Source: Clostridia bacterium (lineage in GTDB: Bacteria > Bacillota > Clostridia > Christensenellales > Aristaeellaceae). From it: 62,583 nucleotides of DNA. How positions within the stretch are numbered: position 1 is the stretch's first letter; every line of letters begins with the position of its first letter. Position numbers and translations under genes: made by a program. Below the pieces are notes generated by a model. The model was not told where the DNA came from. It ran no database searches and was given only the letters and a program-made list of their open reading frames with translations. Positions 24,229-61,541 of this stretch are shown piece by piece. The DNA is taken from assembly GCA_017430225.1 (NCBI GenBank), contig JAFRNK010000111.1, positions 1 through 62,583 on the forward strand. The letters run 5' to 3'.

Positions 24229-25170
24229 TTAATTTTCCGCTTCTTTGGCGTGGAAGATCGGCATGTTGATGTCCGCATTGACCATGGTGCCGTAGATGGC
24301 GCGGAACTGGGTGGGGGTGCATTTCTTCTGCTCCCGGAACACGCGGTTGAAGGTGGCGACGCTGCCGAAGCCGGAGGACTGCGCGATTTCGTGGATCGGC
24401 TGGATGGTGCGGATCAGCAGGTTGGACGCCGCGTTCAGGCGCTTGACCAGCAGGTATTCCGAGAAGGAGACACCGGCGAATTCCTTGAAGACGCGGGAGA
24501 AATAATACTTGGAGAAGCCCGCGAACGCCGCCGCGTCGGAAAGGCAGATATCGTCCATATAATGCTCGGAAATGTAGGTCATGACGCTGTTCATGATCTC
24601 GGGATCGATGCGCTTGCGGGCAGCGGGGGTGTGCGGGGCGGCCGTGTCCAGGTACTGCCGGCCCAGCAGGGCGTAGACCTGCATCAGGTAAGCGTAGCAC
24701 TGGGTATTCCACATGGATTTTTTCTGGAAATAGCAGTCGATAGCTTCCATCAGCTGATGGCAGACCTGTTCGCGCAGGTCTGTTTTGTCCTGCAGATAGA
24801 TCGGGTGCTGCGTCATGAAGCTGACCTGCGGCATATCCTGGAGCGTATAGAGCGGGCTTGGCTCGAACAGCAGCAGGTAGCGCAGGGTATCGTCCGTTTC
24901 CGTCAGCGCGTGCGGGCAGCCCGAGGGGATGAAGAGGATCTGCCCCGGCTGGACGCGGTAGGTCTGGTCGGGCAGCTGATAAATGGCAGTGCCGCGCTGT
25001 AGCAGGATGACTTCGATGGCGGAATGGACGTGGTTGTCGTAATGCCCCGCGACGTCGGACGCCCAGATGCGGACAGACGAATGCTCCCGATAGGTGATGT
25101 ATTCCTGCTTTCCGTGCAGGATGCGGAACCCGTCCGGGAAACGGCTGTTGTCAGTAGTTTCGTTTGCCAT
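24229..25170 (-). CDS. AraC-family transcriptional regulator
   Basis: A 313-residue regulator. Residues about 25-110 form a cupin-type sensor (HYDNHVHSAIEVILLQRGTAIYQL, then VQPGQILFIPSGCPHAL). The C-terminal 100 residues have the two AraC helix-turn-helix motifs (LSDAAAFAGFSKYYFSRVFKE and IHEIAQSSGFGSVATFNRVFRE). It should respond to a sugar or related metabolite. The target is not evident; the next gene on the right is carA, transcribed away from it across a 597-base gap. Start at 25170 with AAAGG 11 bases before it. Confidence 0.92.
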   Translation of the reverse strand: MANETTDNSRFPDGFRILHGKQEYITYREHSSVRIWASDVAGHYDNHVHSAIEVILLQRGTAIYQLPDQTYRVQPGQILFIPSGCPHALTETDDTLRYLLLFEPSPLYTLQDMPQVSFMTQHPIYLQDKTDLREQVCHQLMEAIDCYFQKKSMWNTQCYAYLMQVYALLGRQYLDTAAPHTPAARKRIDPEIMNSVMTYISEHYMDDICLSDAAAFAGFSKYYFSRVFKEFAGVSFSEYLLVKRLNAASNLLIRTIQPIHEIAQSSGFGSVATFNRVFREQKKCTPTQFRAIYGTMVNADINMPIFHAKEAEN

Positions 25171-25681
25171 AGAAACCAGCCTTTCACTTTCTCAAATATT
25201 GTTAATTATGCCAATTATACGTATAAGCAACAATGTAAAATTGGGTATACAGTACTCGCGGCTTGCGGGGAATATGATCATTCGTTGCTCCGCAAAAGGA
25301 GACTCAATGGTCGGCAATTGCGCTTTATCAAAGTAAAGAAGCCGGAAAATAACGATAATTCGCCATTTTAACGCCTGAAAACGCGAAAAAGCCAGGATGT
25401 ATAAATTGGTATCCGAAGAGTTGAATACGGCACGCGGATCCGCTGGCTGACGAGCCTATTATATCAAAATAAGCTGAAAAAACAAGAACTTTTCAGAATT
25501 GAGACAACTTCTGCGCAGGACAGCACGAATAATGATCACCTGATCTGCGCGGACCAGACACAAAAACAGAGCAGCAACAGATGTATAAAAATGCGCATAA
25601 AGTGATGTCGGAGAATGTGAACGGCGGATTGCAGGAAAACCGCCAAACCCCCGCAGTCATTGCCTTTTTATCGTACTTTAA
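25171..25681. other. Gene-free AT-rich interval
   Basis: About 510 bases between the divergent AraC-type gene and the carA promoter. A possible AraC-gene promoter (TTGTTG, 17 bases, CATAAT on the minus strand) lies close to 25200-25230. GCCAG and CTGGC at about 25391 and 25442 could close a loose hairpin. I recognise no riboswitch, RNA gene or convincing reading frame. Confidence 0.4.
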
Positions 25682-25740
25682 TTGCCAAACCATCGGATAT
25701 CATGTAAAATAGGCGCGCGAAGGGTTTGGCCTTTGCGCGC
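25682..25740 (+). promoter_or_regulatory. carA promoter with 5'-terminal hairpin
   Basis: TTGCCA (25682-25687), 17 bases, TAAAAT (25705-25710). The predicted transcript would begin almost exactly at a hairpin GCGCGCGAAGG/CCTTTGCGCGC (25713-25740, one G-U pair). There is no U-tract, so it is not a terminator; a 5' mRNA-stabilising stem or a protein-binding leader are possible. Confidence 0.65.
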
Positions 25741-25767
25741 TATTCATGTGGATTGATGAGGATTGTC

Positions 25768-26826
25768 ATGGCTAAAACAGCTTATCTTGTATTGAGCAAC
25801 GGCGCCGTGTTTAAGGGCCGCCGGATTGGCGCGGAAGTCGACCGGATCGGGGAACTGGTGTTCACCACCGGCATGGAAGGCTATATCGAGACCCTGACCG
25901 ACCCGAGCTATTACGGGCAGATCGTGACCCAGTCATTCCCCCTGATCGGGAATTACGGGATTATCGAGGAGGATTTCGAGGGCGAGAGCGCGCTCTTCGG
26001 CTACGTATGCCGGGAGATTTCGGATACGCCCTCCAATTTCCGGTGCCAGTATACGGTGGACGAGTACCTGCGCCGCAAAGGCATCCCCGGCATCGTGGGG
26101 GTGGATACGCGGCAGATTGTGCGCATCACCCGTGAAGAGGGCGTCATGAACGCCGTCATCTGCAGCAGCGTGCCGGAAGACCTGAGCGCTATCCGCAACT
26201 ACGCTGTGGTAAACGCCGTGAAGAGCGTGACCTGCGCCGCGCCGGCGGACTGGCCCGCGGAGGGGGAACAGAAACACCGCGTGACCCTGATCGACTACGG
26301 CATGAAGCGCAACATCGTGCGCAGCCTGCAGTGCCGAGGCTGCGCGGTGCACGTAGTGCCGGCGGACACGCTCGCCGAGAAGGTCCTCGCGGAGGATCCG
26401 GACGGGATCATGCTCTCCAACGGCCCGGGCGACCCGAAGGAGAACGTCGGCCCCATCGCTGAACTCAAAAAGCTCATCGGGAAGAAGCCGGTCTTCGGCA
26501 TTTGCCTGGGCCACCAGCTGACCGCGCTGGCCCTGGGCGGGGATACCGTCAAGCTCAAGTACGGCCACCGCGGCGGCAACCAGCCCGTGCGGGAACTCGG
26601 AACCGGCCGCACCTGGATCACCAGCCAGAACCACGGCTACGCGGTGGTGGCGGACAGCCTGAAGGGCGTGGGCGAGGAGTCTTTTGTGAACGCCAATGAC
26701 GGCTCCTGCGAAGGCATGCGCTATCCCGGCCTGAATTGCCTGACGGTGCAGTTCCATCCCGAAGCCTGCTCTGGGCCGAAGGACACGGGATTCCTGTTCG
26801 ACAGGTTTATGGAAATGATGAAATAG
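25768..26826 (+). CDS. carA: Carbamoyl-phosphate synthase small (glutaminase) subunit
   Basis: CarA hydrolyses glutamine and passes ammonia to CarB for carbamoyl phosphate, used in pyrimidine and arginine synthesis. The 352-residue protein has the N-terminal CarA domain (TTGMEGYIETLTDPSY) and a class I glutamine amidotransferase with GICLGHQL (nucleophile Cys) and the FHPEACSGP block. The start at 25768 (MAKTAY) follows GAGGA; the frame continues 14 codons upstream without a better site. It is separated from carB by a 1-kb ATPase gene, which is unusual because carA and carB are normally adjacent. Confidence 0.96.
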   Translation: MAKTAYLVLSNGAVFKGRRIGAEVDRIGELVFTTGMEGYIETLTDPSYYGQIVTQSFPLIGNYGIIEEDFEGESALFGYVCREISDTPSNFRCQYTVDEYLRRKGIPGIVGVDTRQIVRITREEGVMNAVICSSVPEDLSAIRNYAVVNAVKSVTCAAPADWPAEGEQKHRVTLIDYGMKRNIVRSLQCRGCAVHVVPADTLAEKVLAEDPDGIMLSNGPGDPKENVGPIAELKKLIGKKPVFGICLGHQLTALALGGDTVKLKYGHRGGNQPVRELGTGRTWITSQNHGYAVVADSLKGVGEESFVNANDGSCEGMRYPGLNCLTVQFHPEACSGPKDTGFLFDRFMEMMK

Positions 26827-26953
26827 AAAAAGTAAGAAGCAGGAATTGAAGGTATCGGGAATAAATCATAAGGAATAAGGATTTTACTTTTGATTTTATG
26901 ATAAATTGTGGATTCTGCAATAGTTTTGCTATCTTTAAAAACGCTTTCGTACC

Positions 26954-26982
26954 TTGACAAAACAGTAAACGAACAGTAAAAT
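26954..26982 (+). promoter_or_regulatory. Promoter of the ATPase gene, overlapped by iterons
   Basis: TTGACA (26954-26959), exactly 17 bases, TAAAAT (26977-26982). The first CAGTAAA lies in the spacer and the second overlaps the -10 box, so anything binding the repeats should block RNA polymerase. Confidence 0.8.
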
Positions 26983-27056
26983 ATTTCAGGACAGTAAACG
27001 GACAGTAAAGAATTTTGAAACAGTAAACGAACAGTAAAAGATTTTTGAACAGTAAA
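26963..27056 (+). repeat. Iteron-like direct repeats (29-bp period)
   Basis: The heptamer CAGTAAA occurs seven times, at 26963, 26974, 26992, 27003, 27021, 27032 and 27050. Spacing alternates 11 and 18 bases, giving a strict 29-bp tandem unit made of two heptamers one helical turn apart. The unit is CAGTAAACGAACAGTAAA plus 11 AT-rich bases. It spans the ATPase promoter and ends 30 bases before the start codon. Confidence 0.9.
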
Positions 27057-27086
27057 ACGGAACGCGGTGAATTCAAGGAGGGTCTG

Positions 27087-28133
27087 ATGTCTAATCCATA
27101 CACGCTGGTTTTCGGTCAGCCGCCGCTTGAAGTAGTGGAGCGTACGGCGCAGGCGGAGCGGATCGTCAGCGATTTCTGCCAGGAGAGGCCTTCCAATTAC
27201 CTGAATCTGGTCACCGGCATCCGCGGATGCGGGAAAACGGTATTCATTACCCAGATCGCCCACCGTCTGCGGGAAAAGCCGGAGTGGATTGTCGTTGATC
27301 TGAATGCGCAGAGGGATCTGTTGTACAGCCTGGCTGCCAAACTGGCGAGCCACCAGACCCTGAGCCAGTGGTTTCAGGAAGCGGAGATCAACCTGCAGGC
27401 GTTCGGCGTGAATGTGGGGCTGAAAAAAGCGCCCGCGGCGACAGATATTGAGGATGTTCTGATCAGGATGCTGCGCAGCATCCAAAAGCATCATCTCCGC
27501 GTACTGGTGACCATCGATGAAGCGACCAACAGCCGTGAAATCAGGGCTTTTGCAAGCGCTTACCAGATTTTTATCCGGGAAGGACTGCCGGTTTTCCTGC
27601 TGATGACGGGTCTGTATCACCAGATCGAACGCCTGCGCAACGCAGAGGGAATGACCTTTCTGGAACGGGCGCCGCGCACGGTATTGGCGCCGCTGAGCTT
27701 TATCCCCATGGTCCGCAAGTATATGGAAACGCTGAAAATCTCCGAGGAGAAAGCGACCCGCCTGGCAAAAGCGACCAAAGGATATGCGTTTGCCTTCCAG
27801 ACTGTCGGTTATTTCTGCTGGGAATACCCTGAAAATGAGAATGAAGCGATGTCCCGCGCCAGAGATTACCTGTCGGAATTCGCATATCAGAAAATCTGGT
27901 CTGAACTTTCCAAGAATGACCGGGATGTCGTACTGGCTGTTCAGCGGGTTCCATCCGGTGAAATCTCAGGCATACGCAGTATCCTCGGATGGACCAGCAA
28001 TCAGTTCAATCCCTATCGCGACCGGCTGCTGAAAACAGGGGTACTGATGAGTCCCCAGTCAGGATATGTATCATTGGCGCTGCCCTGGTTTGGGGAAGTG
28101 GCGGTGAATTTTGAGGAGATAAACAATGCCTAA
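27087..28133 (+). CDS. AAA/STAND-type ATPase with C-terminal winged helix, inside the car operon
   Basis: A 348-residue ATPase. Walker A is GIRGCGKT (about residues 48-55) and Walker B is RVLVTIDEA (about 139-147). The middle resembles AAA/Orc-type ATPases (IPMVRKYMETLKISEEKATRLAKA). The C-terminal 70 residues (SKNDRDVVLAVQ, SILGWTSNQFNPYRDRLLKTGVL) look like a winged helix. So it could bind DNA, and the repeats over its own promoter are the obvious candidate target. Start at 27087 follows AAGGAGGG. The stop overlaps the carB start by 8 bases. It is not part of carbamoyl phosphate synthesis in any organism I know. Family function is unknown to me. Confidence 0.8.
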   Translation: MSNPYTLVFGQPPLEVVERTAQAERIVSDFCQERPSNYLNLVTGIRGCGKTVFITQIAHRLREKPEWIVVDLNAQRDLLYSLAAKLASHQTLSQWFQEAEINLQAFGVNVGLKKAPAATDIEDVLIRMLRSIQKHHLRVLVTIDEATNSREIRAFASAYQIFIREGLPVFLLMTGLYHQIERLRNAEGMTFLERAPRTVLAPLSFIPMVRKYMETLKISEEKATRLAKATKGYAFAFQTVGYFCWEYPENENEAMSRARDYLSEFAYQKIWSELSKNDRDVVLAVQRVPSGEISGIRSILGWTSNQFNPYRDRLLKTGVLMSPQSGYVSLALPWFGEVAVNFEEINNA

Positions 28134-31100
28134 AGACGCAACCATCCGCAAAGTGCTGATGATCGGCTCGGGGCCGATCGTGATCGGGCAGGCGGCGGAA
28201 TTTGACTACGCGGGTGCGCAGGCCTGCCGGGTGCTCAGGGACGAGGGTATCAATGTGGTGCTGGTGAACTCGAACCCGGCCACCATCATGACCGACAAGC
28301 ATCTGGCGGACGAGATCTACCTGGAACCGCTGACCGTGGAGACGGTGGCGCGCATCATCGAGAAGGAGCGGCCGGACGGGCTGCTGGCGGGGCTGGGCGG
28401 CCAGACGGCGCTGACCCTGGCCATGCAGCTGAGCAGATTCGGCGTGCTGGAAAAGTACGGCGTGCGCCTGCTGGGCAGCCCCATCGAGGCCATCGAGCGC
28501 GCGGAGGACCGGGAAAAATTCCGCGAGACGATGGAAGCCCTGGGCGAGCCCTGTGTGCCCTCCGAGATCGCGGAAACGCTGGAGGACGCGGTGAAAGCCG
28601 CTTCCGATATCGGCTATCCGGTCATCGTGCGTCCGGCCTACACCCTGGGCGGCAGCGGCGGCGGCATCGCCGGCAGCGAGGACGAGCTGCGTGTCATTGC
28701 GCGCACGGGCCTGGAGCTTTCGCCCATCACCCAGGTGCTGATCGAAAAGTGCATCTCCGGCTGGAAAGAGATCGAATTTGAGACCATGCGGGACGGCGCG
28801 GGCAACGTGATCGCCGTCTGCTCCATGGAAAACGTGGATCCCGTGGGCGTGCATACCGGCGATTCCATCGTGGTGGCCCCGGCGCTGACCCTGTCGGACA
28901 AGGAATACCAGATGCTGCGCAGCGCCTCCCTCCGGATGATCGAGGCCATCGGCATCGTGGGCGGGTGCAACTGCCAGTTCGCGTTGAATCCGGACAGCTT
29001 CGAGTACGCGGTGATCGAGGTCAACCCGCGCGTATCCCGGTCTTCGGCCCTGGCCAGCAAGGCCACGGGCTATCCCATCGCCAAGCTGACCACTCGCATC
29101 GCCCTGGGCTACACCCTGGACGAGATCGCCAACGACATCACCGGAAAAACCTGCGCCTGCTTCGAGCCGACGCTGGACTACGTAGTGGTCAAGTACCCCA
29201 AGTGGCCTTTCGACAAGTTCTCCGGCGCTTCCCGCCGCCTTGGCACGCAGATGAAGGCCACCGGCGAGGTCATGGCCATCGGCCAGTGCTTCGAGGAAGC
29301 CCTGATGAAGGCGGTGCGCGGCGCGGAGATCGGGCTGAACACGCTGAATGCGGCGCCGCTGAACAGCGACACGCTGGACGAACGCCTCAATGCGCAGGAC
29401 GACCGGCGGCTGTTTACCGTGTTCGAGGCCTTGAAAGCGGGCCGGACGGTGGACGAGCTGTACGCCGTGACGAAGATTGACCGTTGGTTCCTGTACCGGC
29501 TGCAGTACATGGCGCAGTTTGAAGAAAACCTGAAAAGCGGCCTGACGGAGGAAAAATACCGCGAGGCCAAGCGCCTGGGATATCCGGACGATGCGGTCCG
29601 GAAGCTCAGCGGGGCGGCGGAGCTGCCCGCTCATCAGATGAGTTATAAAATGGTGGATACCTGCGGCGCGGAGTTCGCCGCGGAGACGCCGTATTTCTAC
29701 AGCTGCCCGTCCGGCTTCTGTGAGAGCCGGGCGCTGCCTCGCAGCGGCAAGCCGGTCATCGCGGTGCTGGGCTCCGGCCCTATCCGCATCGGCCAGGGCA
29801 TTGAGTTCGATTACAGCTCGGTGCACTGCGTCTGGACGCTCAGGGAAATGGGCTACGATGTGGTCATCATCAACAACAACCCGGAAACCGTGTCCACGGA
29901 CTATGACACGGCGGACCGGCTGTACTTCGAGCCCCTGTACCCCGAAGACGTGATGAACATCCTGCGGGTGGAGAATCCCATCGGCGTGGTGGTGGCCTTC
30001 GGTGGGCAGACAGCTATCAAGCTGACGAAATTCCTGGACGGGCAGGGTATCCGCATCCTGGGCACCAGCGCGGAGGGCATCGACCTGGCGGAGGACCGCG
30101 AGCGCTTCGACGCGCTGCTGGAGCGGTTCCGCATCCGGCGCCCGCGGGGGCATTCCGTGCGCACCCTGGAGGAAGCGGTCCATGCTGCGGAGGATCTGGG
30201 CTATCCGGTGCTCCTGAGGCCCTCCTACGTCATCGGCGGGCAGAACATGACCATCTCCCGCGGGGAGAAGGACACGGTGGCTTACATGGAGCGCATCCTG
30301 GCGGGCGGCATCGAGAATCCGGTGCTCATCGACCAGTACCTGCCCGGCATCGAGCTGGAGGTTGACGTGATCTCCGACGGCGAGGACGTGCTCATCCCCG
30401 GCATCATGGAGCACATCGAGCGCGCGGGCGTGCACTCGGGCGACTCCATCGCGGTCTATCCGCCCTACAACCTGAACGACATCGACTTAAAGCGCGTATG
30501 CGACTGCTCCGAAAAACTGGCGCTGGCGCTGGGCACCAAGGGCCTGGTGAACATCCAGTACCTGATTTACGAGAACGAATTGTACGTCATCGAGGTCAAT
30601 CCCCGGGCTTCCCGCACGATCCCCTACATCAGCAAGGTGACCCAGGTGCCCATGGTGGATCTGGCGGCTCGGGTGATGCTGGGCGAACGCCTGACCGACC
30701 TGGGCTACGGTACCGGGCTGTACCGCACGCCGCCCTATACGGCGGTGAAGGTGCCGGTATTCTCTTTCGAGAAGCTGAACGACGCGAACTCCATCCTCGG
30801 TCCGGAAATGAAGTCCACCGGCGAGGTGCTGGGCATCGGCAAGACCGTCAGCGAGGCCCTGTTCAAGGGCCTGACCGCCGCGGGCTTCACCGTGCCGGAT
30901 CTGCACGGGCACGAACGGGGCATCCTGATCAGCGTGGCGGAAAACGATTATGAGGACATCCTCTCCCTGGCGAAGCGCTTCAGCGATCTGGGGCTGACCC
31001 TGTATGCCACCACCGGGACGGCGGAATCCATTCGCCGCATGGGCATCCCCGTGCAGCCCGTGAAGAACGCCACCGAGTCCGGCGAGATCCGCGAGCTGAT

Positions 31101-32157
31101 GGAAAGCGGCGCGCTGAGCTACATCATCTACACCGGCGCGGTGCAGGACACCACGGTGGGCGACTATACGCTGCTCCACCGCCGGGCCATGCAGCTGGGC
31201 ATTCCCTGCCTGACGTCGCTGGACACCGCAAACGCGCTGGCGGGCATCATCGAGAGCCGCTTCACCGGGCGGAATACGGAGCTGGTGGACATTAACGCCA
31301 TGCGCGCCTGGCGGCAGAAGATCCACTTTGCCAAGATGCACTCCTGCGGCAACGACTATATCTTTGTGGAGAACTTCGACGGCGGCATCACCTGCCCCGA
31401 ATCCCTGTGCGTGTCGCTGTGCGCGCCGCACTATGGCATCGGCGGCGACGGCATCGTGCTGATCGAGCACAGCCGGGTGGCGGACGCGAAAATGCGCTCC
31501 TTCAACCGCGACGGCAGCGAGGGGCGCATGGCGGGCAACAACCTGCGCTGCGTGGCCAAGTACCTGTACGACAAAGGTTACGTGCGCAGCGAGTTCATGT
31601 CCATCGAGACGGCCTCGGGCGTCCACCGGGTTCGGGTCTACCTGCGGGACGGAAAGGTCAGTTCCGTCACCGCGGATATGGGTCCGGCCAGCCTGAAGGC
31701 TGAAGAGATCCCGGTGGTCAGCAATCAGCCCACGGTGGTCAATCGGGCGGTGACCATCGGCGGCCGGGAATGGAACATCACCTGCGTGTCCGTGGGCAAC
31801 CCCCACTGCGTGGTGTTCATGGACGGCATCGACGGCCTGGACGTGGGCGCCGTCGGGCCCCAGTTCGAATATGCCTCCCTGTTCCCGGAGCGCGTCAATA
31901 CCGAGTTCGTGCGCGTGGTCAACCGCACCTGCCTCAGGATGCGCGTGTGGGAGCGCGGCAACGGCGAGACCCTGGCCTGCGGCACGGGCGCCTGCGCCGC
32001 GGTGGCCGCCGCCATCGAGAACGGCTACTGCGCGTCGGACACTGACGTACTGGTCAAGGTCAAGGGCGGCGACCTGACGGTACGCTGCAGCGCGGAGAAC
32101 AATATCACCCTCACCGGCGAAGCGGTGCTCGTTTATGAAGGAGAGTTTGAATACTGA
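28126..32157 (+). CDS. carB: CarB-DapF fusion: carbamoyl-phosphate synthase large subunit with a diaminopimelate epimerase domain
   Basis: A 1343-residue fusion. Residues 1 to about 1060 are a complete CarB: two ATP-grasp halves (GSGPIVIGQAAEFDYAG and, in the second half, GSGPIRIGQGIEFDYSS), NPRVSRSSALASKATGYP, and the MGS-like allosteric domain ending VDINAMRAW. Residues 1066-1343 match DapF: KMHSCGNDYIFV, GIGGDGIVLIE, DGSEGRM, CGTGACAAVAAA. In DapF two cysteines do the proton exchange. The second is present (Cys1285). The first, normally in MCGN, is Ala1136 here (RMAGNN). The start overlaps the ATPase stop. Only one start is seen for the whole frame, although an internal start cannot be excluded. 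Confidence 0.92.
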   Translation: MPKDATIRKVLMIGSGPIVIGQAAEFDYAGAQACRVLRDEGINVVLVNSNPATIMTDKHLADEIYLEPLTVETVARIIEKERPDGLLAGLGGQTALTLAMQLSRFGVLEKYGVRLLGSPIEAIERAEDREKFRETMEALGEPCVPSEIAETLEDAVKAASDIGYPVIVRPAYTLGGSGGGIAGSEDELRVIARTGLELSPITQVLIEKCISGWKEIEFETMRDGAGNVIAVCSMENVDPVGVHTGDSIVVAPALTLSDKEYQMLRSASLRMIEAIGIVGGCNCQFALNPDSFEYAVIEVNPRVSRSSALASKATGYPIAKLTTRIALGYTLDEIANDITGKTCACFEPTLDYVVVKYPKWPFDKFSGASRRLGTQMKATGEVMAIGQCFEEALMKAVRGAEIGLNTLNAAPLNSDTLDERLNAQDDRRLFTVFEALKAGRTVDELYAVTKIDRWFLYRLQYMAQFEENLKSGLTEEKYREAKRLGYPDDAVRKLSGAAELPAHQMSYKMVDTCGAEFAAETPYFYSCPSGFCESRALPRSGKPVIAVLGSGPIRIGQGIEFDYSSVHCVWTLREMGYDVVIINNNPETVSTDYDTADRLYFEPLYPEDVMNILRVENPIGVVVAFGGQTAIKLTKFLDGQGIRILGTSAEGIDLAEDRERFDALLERFRIRRPRGHSVRTLEEAVHAAEDLGYPVLLRPSYVIGGQNMTISRGEKDTVAYMERILAGGIENPVLIDQYLPGIELEVDVISDGEDVLIPGIMEHIERAGVHSGDSIAVYPPYNLNDIDLKRVCDCSEKLALALGTKGLVNIQYLIYENELYVIEVNPRASRTIPYISKVTQVPMVDLAARVMLGERLTDLGYGTGLYRTPPYTAVKVPVFSFEKLNDANSILGPEMKSTGEVLGIGKTVSEALFKGLTAAGFTVPDLHGHERGILISVAENDYEDILSLAKRFSDLGLTLYATTGTAESIRRMGIPVQPVKNATESGEIRELMESGALSYIIYTGAVQDTTVGDYTLLHRRAMQLGIPCLTSLDTANALAGIIESRFTGRNTELVDINAMRAWRQKIHFAKMHSCGNDYIFVENFDGGITCPESLCVSLCAPHYGIGGDGIVLIEHSRVADAKMRSFNRDGSEGRMAGNNLRCVAKYLYDKGYVRSEFMSIETASGVHRVRVYLRDGKVSSVTADMGPASLKAEEIPVVSNQPTVVNRAVTIGGREWNITCVSVGNPHCVVFMDGIDGLDVGAVGPQFEYASLFPERVNTEFVRVVNRTCLRMRVWERGNGETLACGTGACAAVAAAIENGYCASDTDVLVKVKGGDLTVRCSAENNITLTGEAVLVYEGEFEY

Positions 32158-59747: not shown

Positions 59748-61541
59748 ATGGAAAACATGCGCAGAACGATCTCGATGCTGTTGGTAGCCGTGATGCTGCT
59801 GGGTATCCCGGCCGCGAACTTCGCGGAAGAGCTCCCTGTGGAGCCTGCTGCTGTCGAGGAGACAGTGGTTGAGGCGCCCGTGGCGGAGCCCGCTCCCGAA
59901 CAGCCTGTACCAGTTGAGCAGCCGGCCGCGGAAGAACCCAAAGCCGAGGAAGCTCCTGTTGTTGTAGAAGAGCCGAAGGCTGAAGTAGCTCCTGCGGTTG
60001 TGGAAGCTCCGGCTGCGGAAGAACCCAAAGCTGAGGAAGCCCCTGTTGTAGAAGAACCTGTGGCCGAAGAACCTGTAGCCGAGAAACCCGTGGTCGAAGA
60101 ACCGGTCGCGGAAGAACCCGCCGTCGAAGCACCCGTCGTGGAAGAGCCGGTGATCGAAGAACCGGTTGTTGAAGAACCTGTGGCCGAAGAGCCCGTCGCA
60201 GAAGAGCCCGTGGTCGAAGAACCGGTTGCCGAAGAGCCCGTGATCGAAGAACCGGTTGCCGAAGAGCCCGTCGCAGAAGAGCCCGTGGCCGAAGAACCGA
60301 TTGTCGAGGAACCCGTAGTCGAAGAAACGGCCGTGGAAGAACCTGTGGTCGAAGAGCCGGCGGAAGCTTTCACCGCCAATGTTAAGGTCCGCGCTTTCAA
60401 GGAAGCGGATCTCCGCCTGGGCATGGATGCTTATCTGATGGCGGAAGTCAGCGACGCGAACATGAGCTACACTGTGACCTGGCAGAGCCGTGAAAATGAT
60501 GAAAAGCCGTGGGAAGATATCGCCTTCGTCGGCGAGACTTACCAGATGAAGCTGACCGAGGACGCAGCGAAGCTCGAATACCGCTGCATCCTGACCGGTA
60601 CCGACGGCAACAAGATTATCAGCAAGGGCTACCGTTTCCCGAACAGCATTTATCCCGTTGCGGCGCCGAAGGCCGAAGAACCGGTTATTGAAGAAACTCC
60701 TGTTGTCGAAGAGCCCATGGCTGAAGAACTGGTTGCAGAAGAGCCCGTGGTTGAAGAACCGGCGGCGGAAGAGCCCGAGGCTGAGGAACCCGCGGCTGTA
60801 ACGGAGCCGGAGGCTCCTGCTGCTGAGTTCACCTTTGCCCCGGTTGCTGAAACTCCCGTTGCGGAAGAACCGGTCGTTGTAGTCTCCGTTGTGGAAGAAG
60901 TACCTGCAGTAGAAGAACCTGTTGAGGAAGAACCTGCAGTTGAAGAAGAATCCCCCGCCTTCACCTTCGCGCCTGCTCCCGAAGCAGTTGAAGAAGAACC
61001 TGCGGAAGAAATCGAATTAGAAGACAACGAGACCCCTCTCGGCTTGGTTGAGCCCCAGACCATCGTGCTGGAAAACAACGAGACCGAAGTCAACGTCCGT
61101 GAAGGCGCCGACGGCCTGGCCGCGATCTTCACCTCCCTGCCTGAAGGCGCGGAAGTGACCGTGGTCGACTTCGACGGCGACTGGGCTACTGTAATCATCG
61201 ACGGCCAGCTCGGTTACATCTACAAGGATGACATCGCCGGATATCTGGATCTCACGGAAGAAGAACCTGCTGAAGAACCCGTCGAAGCGGAAGCTCCCAA
61301 GGCTGAGCCCAAGGTCACCATCTTCACCTCCCGCCGTTCCGTCATGGAAGAAGGCGAGCCCGTCTACCTGACCAGCAAGCTGGAAGGCTTCGAAGACTAC
61401 ACCGAGTTCATGTACATCTGGTACTGCGACAAGGGCAATGGCTTTGAGGTAGTCGAAGGCGCCAACGAAGCGACCTACACTTTCTCCGCCAACGCCGAGT
61501 CCCTGACCTGGGGCTGGCAGCTGGAAGTGCTCTGCCGCTGA
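59748..61541 (+). CDS. Secreted repetitive surface protein with Ig-like and SH3b modules
   Basis: A 597-residue protein. Residues 1-26 are a signal peptide. Two long Val/Pro/Glu stretches, built on EEPV and VEEPVAEEP (about 28-200 and 305-420), flank an Ig-like module (VKVRAFKEADLRLG...). The C-terminal part has an SH3b-like domain (NVREGADGLAAIFTSLPEGAEV...GYIYKDD) and a second Ig-like module (FTSRRSVMEEGEPVYL). There is no LPXTG motif or transmembrane anchor, so wall attachment may rely on SH3b or charge. It ends at a strong terminator (61548-61590). Confidence 0.8.
   Translation: MENMRRTISMLLVAVMLLGIPAANFAEELPVEPAAVEETVVEAPVAEPAPEQPVPVEQPAAEEPKAEEAPVVVEEPKAEVAPAVVEAPAAEEPKAEEAPVVEEPVAEEPVAEKPVVEEPVAEEPAVEAPVVEEPVIEEPVVEEPVAEEPVAEEPVVEEPVAEEPVIEEPVAEEPVAEEPVAEEPIVEEPVVEETAVEEPVVEEPAEAFTANVKVRAFKEADLRLGMDAYLMAEVSDANMSYTVTWQSRENDEKPWEDIAFVGETYQMKLTEDAAKLEYRCILTGTDGNKIISKGYRFPNSIYPVAAPKAEEPVIEETPVVEEPMAEELVAEEPVVEEPAAEEPEAEEPAAVTEPEAPAAEFTFAPVAETPVAEEPVVVVSVVEEVPAVEEPVEEEPAVEEESPAFTFAPAPEAVEEEPAEEIELEDNETPLGLVEPQTIVLENNETEVNVREGADGLAAIFTSLPEGAEVTVVDFDGDWATVIIDGQLGYIYKDDIAGYLDLTEEEPAEEPVEAEAPKAEPKVTIFTSRRSVMEEGEPVYLTSKLEGFEDYTEFMYIWYCDKGNGFEVVEGANEATYTFSANAESLTWGWQLEVLCR

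Follow-up and report, generated by a model that had tools for sequence, protein, structure and literature searches.

A solitary STAND/AAA-type ATPase gene between carA and carB and the tandem repeat array that probably serves as its own operator

The window, which is the whole stretch of 62,583 nucleotides that was analysed, contains an orphan STAND/AAA-type ATPase gene (27087..28133, 348 aa) between the host genes carA (25768..26826) and carB (28126..32157), with all three genes on the forward strand. The ATPase ORF starts with the ATG at 27087 and ends with the TAA at 28131-28133. The ATG of carB at 28126 precedes this stop, which confirms the 8-nt overlap of the two genes, ATGCCTAA (28126..28133, forward strand). 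The third-position GC of the ATPase gene is 0.65, compared with 0.84 for carA and 0.88 for carB. A low-GC stretch at 26827-27086 (32.7% GC) holds a repeat array and a promoter. The carB product is fused at its C terminus to a diaminopimelate epimerase (DapF) domain, as matched in Pfam (PF01678, E 2e-54). At a distance from these genes, long tandem repeats of 15, 45 and 60 bp with GAAGAACCCGTGGTC units occupy 60051-61287 in coding-like sequence.

The array consists of seven CAGTAAA words on the forward strand (26963..27056), which start at 26963, 26974, 26992, 27003, 27021, 27032 and 27050. The spacings of 11, 18, 11, 18, 11 and 18 bp give the strict 29-bp tandem period of the original prediction, and Tandem Repeats Finder (TRF) likewise calls a period of 29 at 26961-27056. 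The pattern ACAGTAAANNNACAGTAAA, allowing up to two mismatches, has three matches in the window, all within the array, for 0.01 expected from shuffles. The source genome (2.65 Mb in 131 contigs, 82% complete) contains one copy of the ATPase gene and one array, and ACAGTAAA pairs 1-25 nt apart occur genome-wide in the array only (six matches; none for the reversed-pattern control). The promoter of the ATPase gene is interwoven with the first two CAGTAAA words. Its -35 element TTGACA (26954..26959, forward strand) is perfect and is followed by a 17-nt spacer, as had been described. The -10 element TAAAAT (26977..26982, forward strand), which is largely made of repeat site 2, matches TATAAT at 5 of 6 positions. 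An RNA element was also considered for the array and rejected, as Rfam gave no match at the gathering score in 24500-29000.

The ATPase has Pfam matches to AAA_16, ATPase_2, AAA_14 and AAA_22. The sequence GIRGCGKT (residues 44-51; 27216..27239, forward strand), which we take to be the Walker A motif, has R46, G47, G49 and K50 invariant in alignment A1, and VTIDEA (residues 141-146; 27507..27524, forward strand), presumably a Walker B-like motif, has an invariant D144 and E145 in at least 90% of members. The pattern of A1 also places a winged helix-turn-helix at about residues 270-340 (27894..28106, forward strand; bounds judged by eye). The P-loop matches and the A1 pattern agree with the earlier assignment as an AAA/STAND ATPase with a C-terminal winged helix. 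The winged-helix part has weak profile matches to BlaI-/ArsR-type repressors among PDB sequences (E 0.045-0.8), and the profile search of these sequences gave nothing convincing, with a best E of 0.0011 to FtsY over the P-loop. The protein has the P-loop domain of the STAND ATPases PF01637, PF13191 and PF13173, with GxRGxGKT and hhhDE, and passes the cut-off of PF13173 (28.8 vs. 27 bits). It falls below those of PF01637 (29.3 vs. 33.2 bits), which some of its relatives pass, and PF13191 (32.4 vs. 32.6 bits). All 65 members of alignment A2, which comprises 65 of 72 possible rows and was used for Pfam only, match ATPase_2, AAA_16 and AAA_14 at E ≤0.01. No convincing whole-protein model was found in Pfam, NCBIfam, PHROGs or PADLOC, and Pfam reported no effector domain in the window ATPase.

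Comparison with seven other genomes of the genus showed that carA runs directly into carB with no insert in four of them (G001, G002, G003 and G006). The ends of carA and carB overlap in these four genomes; thus there is no intergenic space to replace, and the earlier description of the insert as a replacement of intergenic space is inexact. The carA stop of G001 has the same position inside ATGCCTAA as the stop of the ATPase gene in the window, and the ATPase gene appears to have taken the place of carA next to the carB start codon. A gene would thereby have become established precisely at the start codon of carB, a biosynthetic gene that is left intact. Since the ATPase copy lies exactly at this junction, translation of carB probably starts from the end of the ATPase message, and carB would be co-regulated as a side effect. 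The remaining genomes of the genus differ at this place. No carA was found in G005, and G004 has a carA-carB spacer of 188 nt with a long inverted repeat (L188), which is a third kind of insert at the junction in the genus. In G007 (L187, 1889-3191) a TTGACA is followed by a four-site CAGTAAA array, a partial copy of the carB start, a YhcG/DUF1016 nuclease gene and the intact carB, a layout that looks as if the nuclease gene had been inserted with target duplication. L187 also contains an ORF of 1342 aa, nearly the same length as the carB-DapF gene of the window. The G007 genome gave no match to the ATPase.

The gene is distributed patchily. Among 60 near genomes, a set that holds the seven others of the genus, it was found only in its own. 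A draw from the class gave 12 of 391 genomes, with the own genome included and one weak match (5.5e-4), and a draw from the phylum gave 4 of 299 at E 1e-20, again with the own genome included. In the main other family of the class, presumably the Lachnospiraceae, 66 of 397 genomes have matches, some of them partial or weak, at up to five places per genome. A profile-guided scan of named genomes matched at least 571 relatives, of which the 80 kept are mostly from Lachnospiraceae and other Clostridia, with some from Olsenella, Eggerthellaceae and the like. More distant relatives occur on 39 plasmid records, at least 23 of which we take to be from actinobacterial genera such as Arthrobacter and Rhodococcus, and are named there 'ATP-binding protein', 'AAA family ATPase' or 'hypothetical protein'. 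No phage homologue was found in annotated phages, nor in IMG/VR by a single-protein scan; the profile found two. In the tblastn search for homologues, matches of fewer than 200 aligned residues or below 50 bits were excluded, and L017 and L178 gave no match.

The neighbours of the homologues include mnmE, dtd, a glycosyltransferase gene and many others. Of 160 downstream neighbours, 96 lie on the same strand, of these 31 within 30 nt and 12 overlapping. The Pfam analysis covered 110 downstream and 103 of 110 upstream ORFs (seven were excluded by hand) from a crude ORF picker, which in the window took a spurious antisense ORF rather than carA as the upstream gene. Even the commonest Pfam families occur in at most 3 of the 110 downstream and 3 of the 103 upstream ORFs; thus no dedicated partner is seen for the ATPase. 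The 25 commonest Pfam families of these ORFs include no transposase. Phage_integrase occurs in 3 of the 103 upstream ORFs, and an IS gene lies next to or near the homologue within 4 kb at 2 of 11 plasmid loci. The family presumably resembles TniB/TnsC-like transposon AAA ATPases (AAA_22), beside which a transposase gene would be expected. The patchy distribution, the differing third-position GC and the lack of a recurring partner make a selfish gene plausible.

The same comparisons bear on the suggestion that the ATPase is a new regulator of the car operon, dedicated to carbamoyl-phosphate synthesis and acting via the coupled translation of carB. The overlap with carB and the promoter of its own are what such a regulator might have. 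However, no carA or carB was found in the examined flanks of the closest homologues (0 of 11 loci, two of which are the same place), four genomes of the genus manage without any insert, and the homologues adjoin many different genes in which no Pfam family recurs, with the gene itself restricted to its own genome among the 60 near ones. A car-specific regulator was rejected on the missing recurrence of neighbours, and we regard this role as very improbable.

The original prediction would have been refuted by homologues without upstream repeats in nearly all genomes, and the opposite was found. The 184 distinct ORFs were reduced to 181 non-redundant homologues by removing near-duplicates and those with less than 160 nt of upstream sequence, and repeated heptamers in the 180 nt before each start codon were scored against 200 dinucleotide shuffles of the same upstream sequence. 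The repeat score lies above all 200 shuffles in 168 of the 181 homologues and above at least 95% of them in 175, with a median score of 41 compared with a shuffled mean of 2.5. A score of at least 13 is reached by 168 of the 181 homologues and by 8 of 461 upstream regions of other ORFs in the same loci, where the highest score is 77; this control replaced an initial one of 601 regions, which could overlap the arrays. Seven of the 13 homologues that are not above every shuffle are distant plasmid homologues, and most of the 11 distant plasmid homologues carry short repeats as judged by eye. The repeat word varies by lineage and includes CAGTAAA, TGATAAA, CTATAAA, GTTATAA, AGTATAT, ATTATAT, TTATGA, GTTGTGG, GATAACA and others. 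The arrays mostly have 5-8 sites with words of 7-8 bp and lie 5' of the gene. The gene of the window has the traits of this family, namely full-length homology over ~348 aa with P-loop and winged helix, promoter repeats of 11/18/29 bp and an Asn-Pro pair together with the word AGTAAA.

A transposable unit with an array at either end of the gene was considered and rejected. Within 400 nt 3' of the gene, three or more sites of the own motif occur in none of 175 members and two or more same-strand sites in five; the corresponding same-strand numbers in 497 background windows are two with at least three sites and three with at least two. Canonical ATPase_2 genes of the same genomes differ from the family in that their repeats are different and longer, or missing (10 examined). 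Four of these ten (L475, L477, L478 and L480) have private upstream repeats of 14-21 nt that are partly inverted, and self-operators may be common across the ATPase superfamily.

The distances between the sites are shared across the family in spite of the varying words. The common lags are 10 (155 of 181 homologues), 19 (138), 29 (149), 39 (129), 58 (111) and 68 (89), and the 461 control upstream regions have no lag peaks of the 10/19/29 type. A fit of the array spacing gave 9.72 bp per site, and the signal is gone at 10.5, the value of B-DNA. Thus, the fit and the shared lags define an array unit of 29 bp in which two of three slots are filled, and the 11/18 arrangement of the window is a variant of the usual 10/19. 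The earlier statement that paired sites lie one turn apart is therefore approximate. The paired sites of the window are 11 bp apart, those of relatives mostly 10 bp, and the array as a whole follows ~9.7 bp per site.

If the ATPase itself binds its array, residues of the winged helix should vary with the repeat word, and such covariation was observed. The analysis was carried out on 165 of the 181 members, with at least four sites and 320-420 aa. After the removal of whole-protein identity, the columns that correlate best with motif similarity among 305 are P309 (r 0.355) and N308 (r 0.336); the column correlations have a mean of 0.003 and an s.d. of 0.07, and the next columns are I101 in the ATPase domain (0.236) and R297 (0.197). 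Both residues (codons 28008..28013, forward strand) belong to the stretch 'SNQFNPYRDRL', at the presumed position of the recognition helix in the C-terminal winged helix. The AGTAAA word accompanies 56 of 57 members with Asn-Pro at 308-309, compared with 2 of 108 members without this pair. On a tree of 328 branches built from the ATPase part only, Asn-Pro changes 11 times and the AGTAAA word 12 times, and 10 of the 11 Asn-Pro changes share branch and direction with changes of the word. N308 alone is common to 11 of the 12 motif-change branches, the top of 513 residue traits (the next best reaches 6), and P309 alone to just two. Independent pairs on well-supported branches number only three, which all agree and are not significant by themselves, and the register of each motif followed a guide order, a procedure that may bias related members towards agreement. 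A second trait pair, P309 against a looser motif class, yielded two supported pairs and was left out of the argument. Together with the arrays, the covariation strongly supports the predicted cooperative binding of the repeats by the ATPase itself, as judged by sequence comparison.

Further analysis showed that the overlap of array and promoter is not particular to the window. An exact TTGACA lies within 60 nt of the first site in 74 of 167 arrays with at least four sites, so that the promoter geometry rests on these 74 and the other 93 have no exact TTGACA in this range. The 80 TTGACA occurrences near arrays compare with 6.15 expected, and 57 of the 80 lie 5-11 nt before site 1. A -10 element with at least 4 of 6 matches follows at 16-18 nt in 68 of the 74 arrays, and site 2 overlaps the -10 element in 51. 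A protein on sites 1 and 2 would cover the core of a strong sigma-70-like promoter; thus autorepression is the simplest reading of the overlap, and the suggestion of a self-regulating gene gains support from this geometry.

The proposed mechanism would work as follows. The C-terminal winged helix would read a word of 7-8 bp, and the ATPase domains would join protomers into a row that matches the words ~9.7 bp apart over and downstream of the promoter. The row would occupy two sites and then skip a slot, giving the 29-bp unit. Site 1 fills the spacer between the -35 and -10 elements and site 2 forms part of the -10 box, and their occupancy would exclude RNA polymerase, by which the ATPase would repress its own gene. 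The formation of the oligomer is probably controlled by the ATPase domain, and the nucleotide state of the ATPase would be the likely switch. From the arrays, the covariation, the promoter geometry and the scattered distribution, we consider it probable that the gene encodes a solitary, horizontally transferred STAND/AAA-type ATPase with its own operator, which assembles on the array and represses itself.

A promoter covered by direct repeats could also be read the other way, with the ATPase as a positive regulator of its own promoter, in the manner of SARP/AfsR on 11-bp direct repeats next to sigma. As described in PMC10936776, AfsR is likewise a STAND protein, its winged helix binds two 11-bp direct repeats, and repeats overlying a promoter can serve activation by SARP regulators. 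However, AfsR works at a poor -35 element according to the same source, whereas an exact TTGACA is present at 74 of the 167 arrays, followed in 68 of these 74 by a -10 element with at least 4 of 6 matches that is usually covered by site 2. Activation therefore seems quite unlikely, and autorepression is the reading that we follow.

Arrays were also found without the gene. Triple CAGTAAA arrays occur in 12 of 397 genomes and lie directly before an ATPase by coordinates in 7 of the 12; two others (G524 and G579) were set aside as probable chance or simple-repeat matches. In G830 an array with promoter-like DNA lacks an ATPase gene, and in G730 an array precedes a TetR gene. G448 (C28), which also has a CAGTAAA-type ATPase, contains a second, solo CAGTAAA array (L322, 1501-1545) before an ORF without a Pfam match, in the place of AbiEi, and AbiEii. 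In G600 (C80; L315, 1045-1545) a three-site array lies ~45 nt after an ATPase remnant, the only array seen 3' of an ATPase piece, which suggests a deletion or a nested insertion of such elements. Two phage contigs (L029, 8951-8998; L076, 5042-5089) carry a four-site 11/18 CAGTAAA array with spacing and spacer like those of the window, and on account of this likeness they alone were retained from the viral matches. The 500-nt stretch around this array is identical in both, which identifies one phage in two contigs, and the array precedes a 187-aa ORF without a Pfam match; the adjoining ORFs presumably encode an anaerobic ribonucleotide reductase activator and a dUTPase. No ATPase match was found in these two records, by a weak test. 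As arrays occur without the gene in G007, G830, G730, G448 and the phage, these may be remnants, borrowed operators or decoys, and some may act in trans.

The neighbours of these solo arrays raise the alternative of a single-gene defence or conflict module, with an array that regulates the module and sometimes neighbouring defence genes, and with phages that carry decoys. The STAND-type ATPase would suit such a module, as would the solo arrays upstream of the AbiEii ORF pair in G448 and the YhcG/DUF1016 nuclease gene in G007, the 11/18-type array in a phage, and single downstream neighbours that match Wadjet JetA, PsyrT and other PADLOC families. However, the PADLOC matches of the ATPase are weak and fall on the P-loop stretch (best 1.7e-4; three members scanned), no effector domain was reported, and no defence family occurs in more than 2 of the 110 downstream ORFs. 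The viral triple-CAGTAAA pattern gave 25 stretches, not above the reversed control of at least 120, so that this count is uninformative as to decoys. We consider a defence role unlikely.

With the gene read as a self-repressing element with its own operator, a broader proposition can be put forward tentatively. The family might represent undescribed one-gene selfish elements, in which the ATPase would polymerise on its own array of 29-bp units and overwind the DNA to ~9.7 bp per protomer, and in which a readable code from helix to word would allow copies to diverge into private operators; the array would be the cis part, able to persist after loss of the gene or to be taken up by phages and toxin-antitoxin operons. 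On the reading of an ATPase that binds its own array, the plasmid relatives and the at least 571 matched stretches in unannotated genomes gain a predicted property, namely that each binds the repeats before its own gene. The residue-word pairs found in nature at two positions of one helix would be suitable material for working out a protein-DNA recognition code. A specific filament geometry is predicted by the unusual spacing of 9.7 bp.

Several known systems share parts of this arrangement. In ParR/parC and the omega/heptad-repeat partition systems, an autorepressor specifically recognises its own short direct repeats in the promoter and binds them cooperatively. These systems differ in that the ATPase is encoded by a separate gene, the binders are ribbon-helix-helix proteins and the setting is a plasmid. 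Iteron Rep proteins are not known to contain a P-loop ATPase. They resemble the family in the winged helix, the tandem repeats and the repression of their own gene, the last by the title of an autorepressor paper cited in PMC4980987, and differ in the length of the iterons, in the two winged helices of RepE and in the adjoining origin.

The likeness to iterons could extend to function, as in the original suggestion of a replication-like initiator. In that case the ATPase would act as initiator or segregation motor on an array that serves replication or partition, and would repress its own gene only incidentally, as happens in iteron plasmids. The same-strand tandem repeats are cognate to one protein, overlap its own promoter and lie only 5' of the gene, homologues occur on the 39 plasmid records, and iteron plasmids use winged-helix Rep proteins with 2-7 iterons, as given in PMC4980987. 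However, the non-plasmid members are single genes among ordinary genes, and the iterons described there are mostly 17-22 bp and up to 76 bp long, compared with sites of 7-8 bp at ~9.7 bp. An incompatibility signal is also missing: copies within one genome have equal motifs in 3 of 63 pairs, with 2.7 expected from permutation, which gives no sign of avoidance. A replication or partition element thus appears distinctly improbable, and autorepression on a private array remains our preferred reading.

SARP/AfsR, as described in PMC10936776, likewise combines a STAND protein and a winged helix, which occupies direct repeats 11 bp apart that overlap the promoter. It is unlike the window ATPase in its N-terminal OmpR-type DNA-binding domain with BTA and TPR, in having two repeats and in activating another gene; the window ATPase has no OmpR-type or BTA domain in Pfam, and its predicted DNA-binding part is C-terminal. 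No description of such arrays was found among the open-access full texts searched. By analogy, the ATPase on its array would work in the manner of autorepressors of iteron or partition systems, and its join of a STAND ATPase to a winged helix on direct repeats recalls AfsR, but it fails defining features of each. Autoregulated DNA-binding ATPases are already known, and what would be new is the combination of a solitary mobile gene, a private coevolving array and a 9.7-bp geometry.
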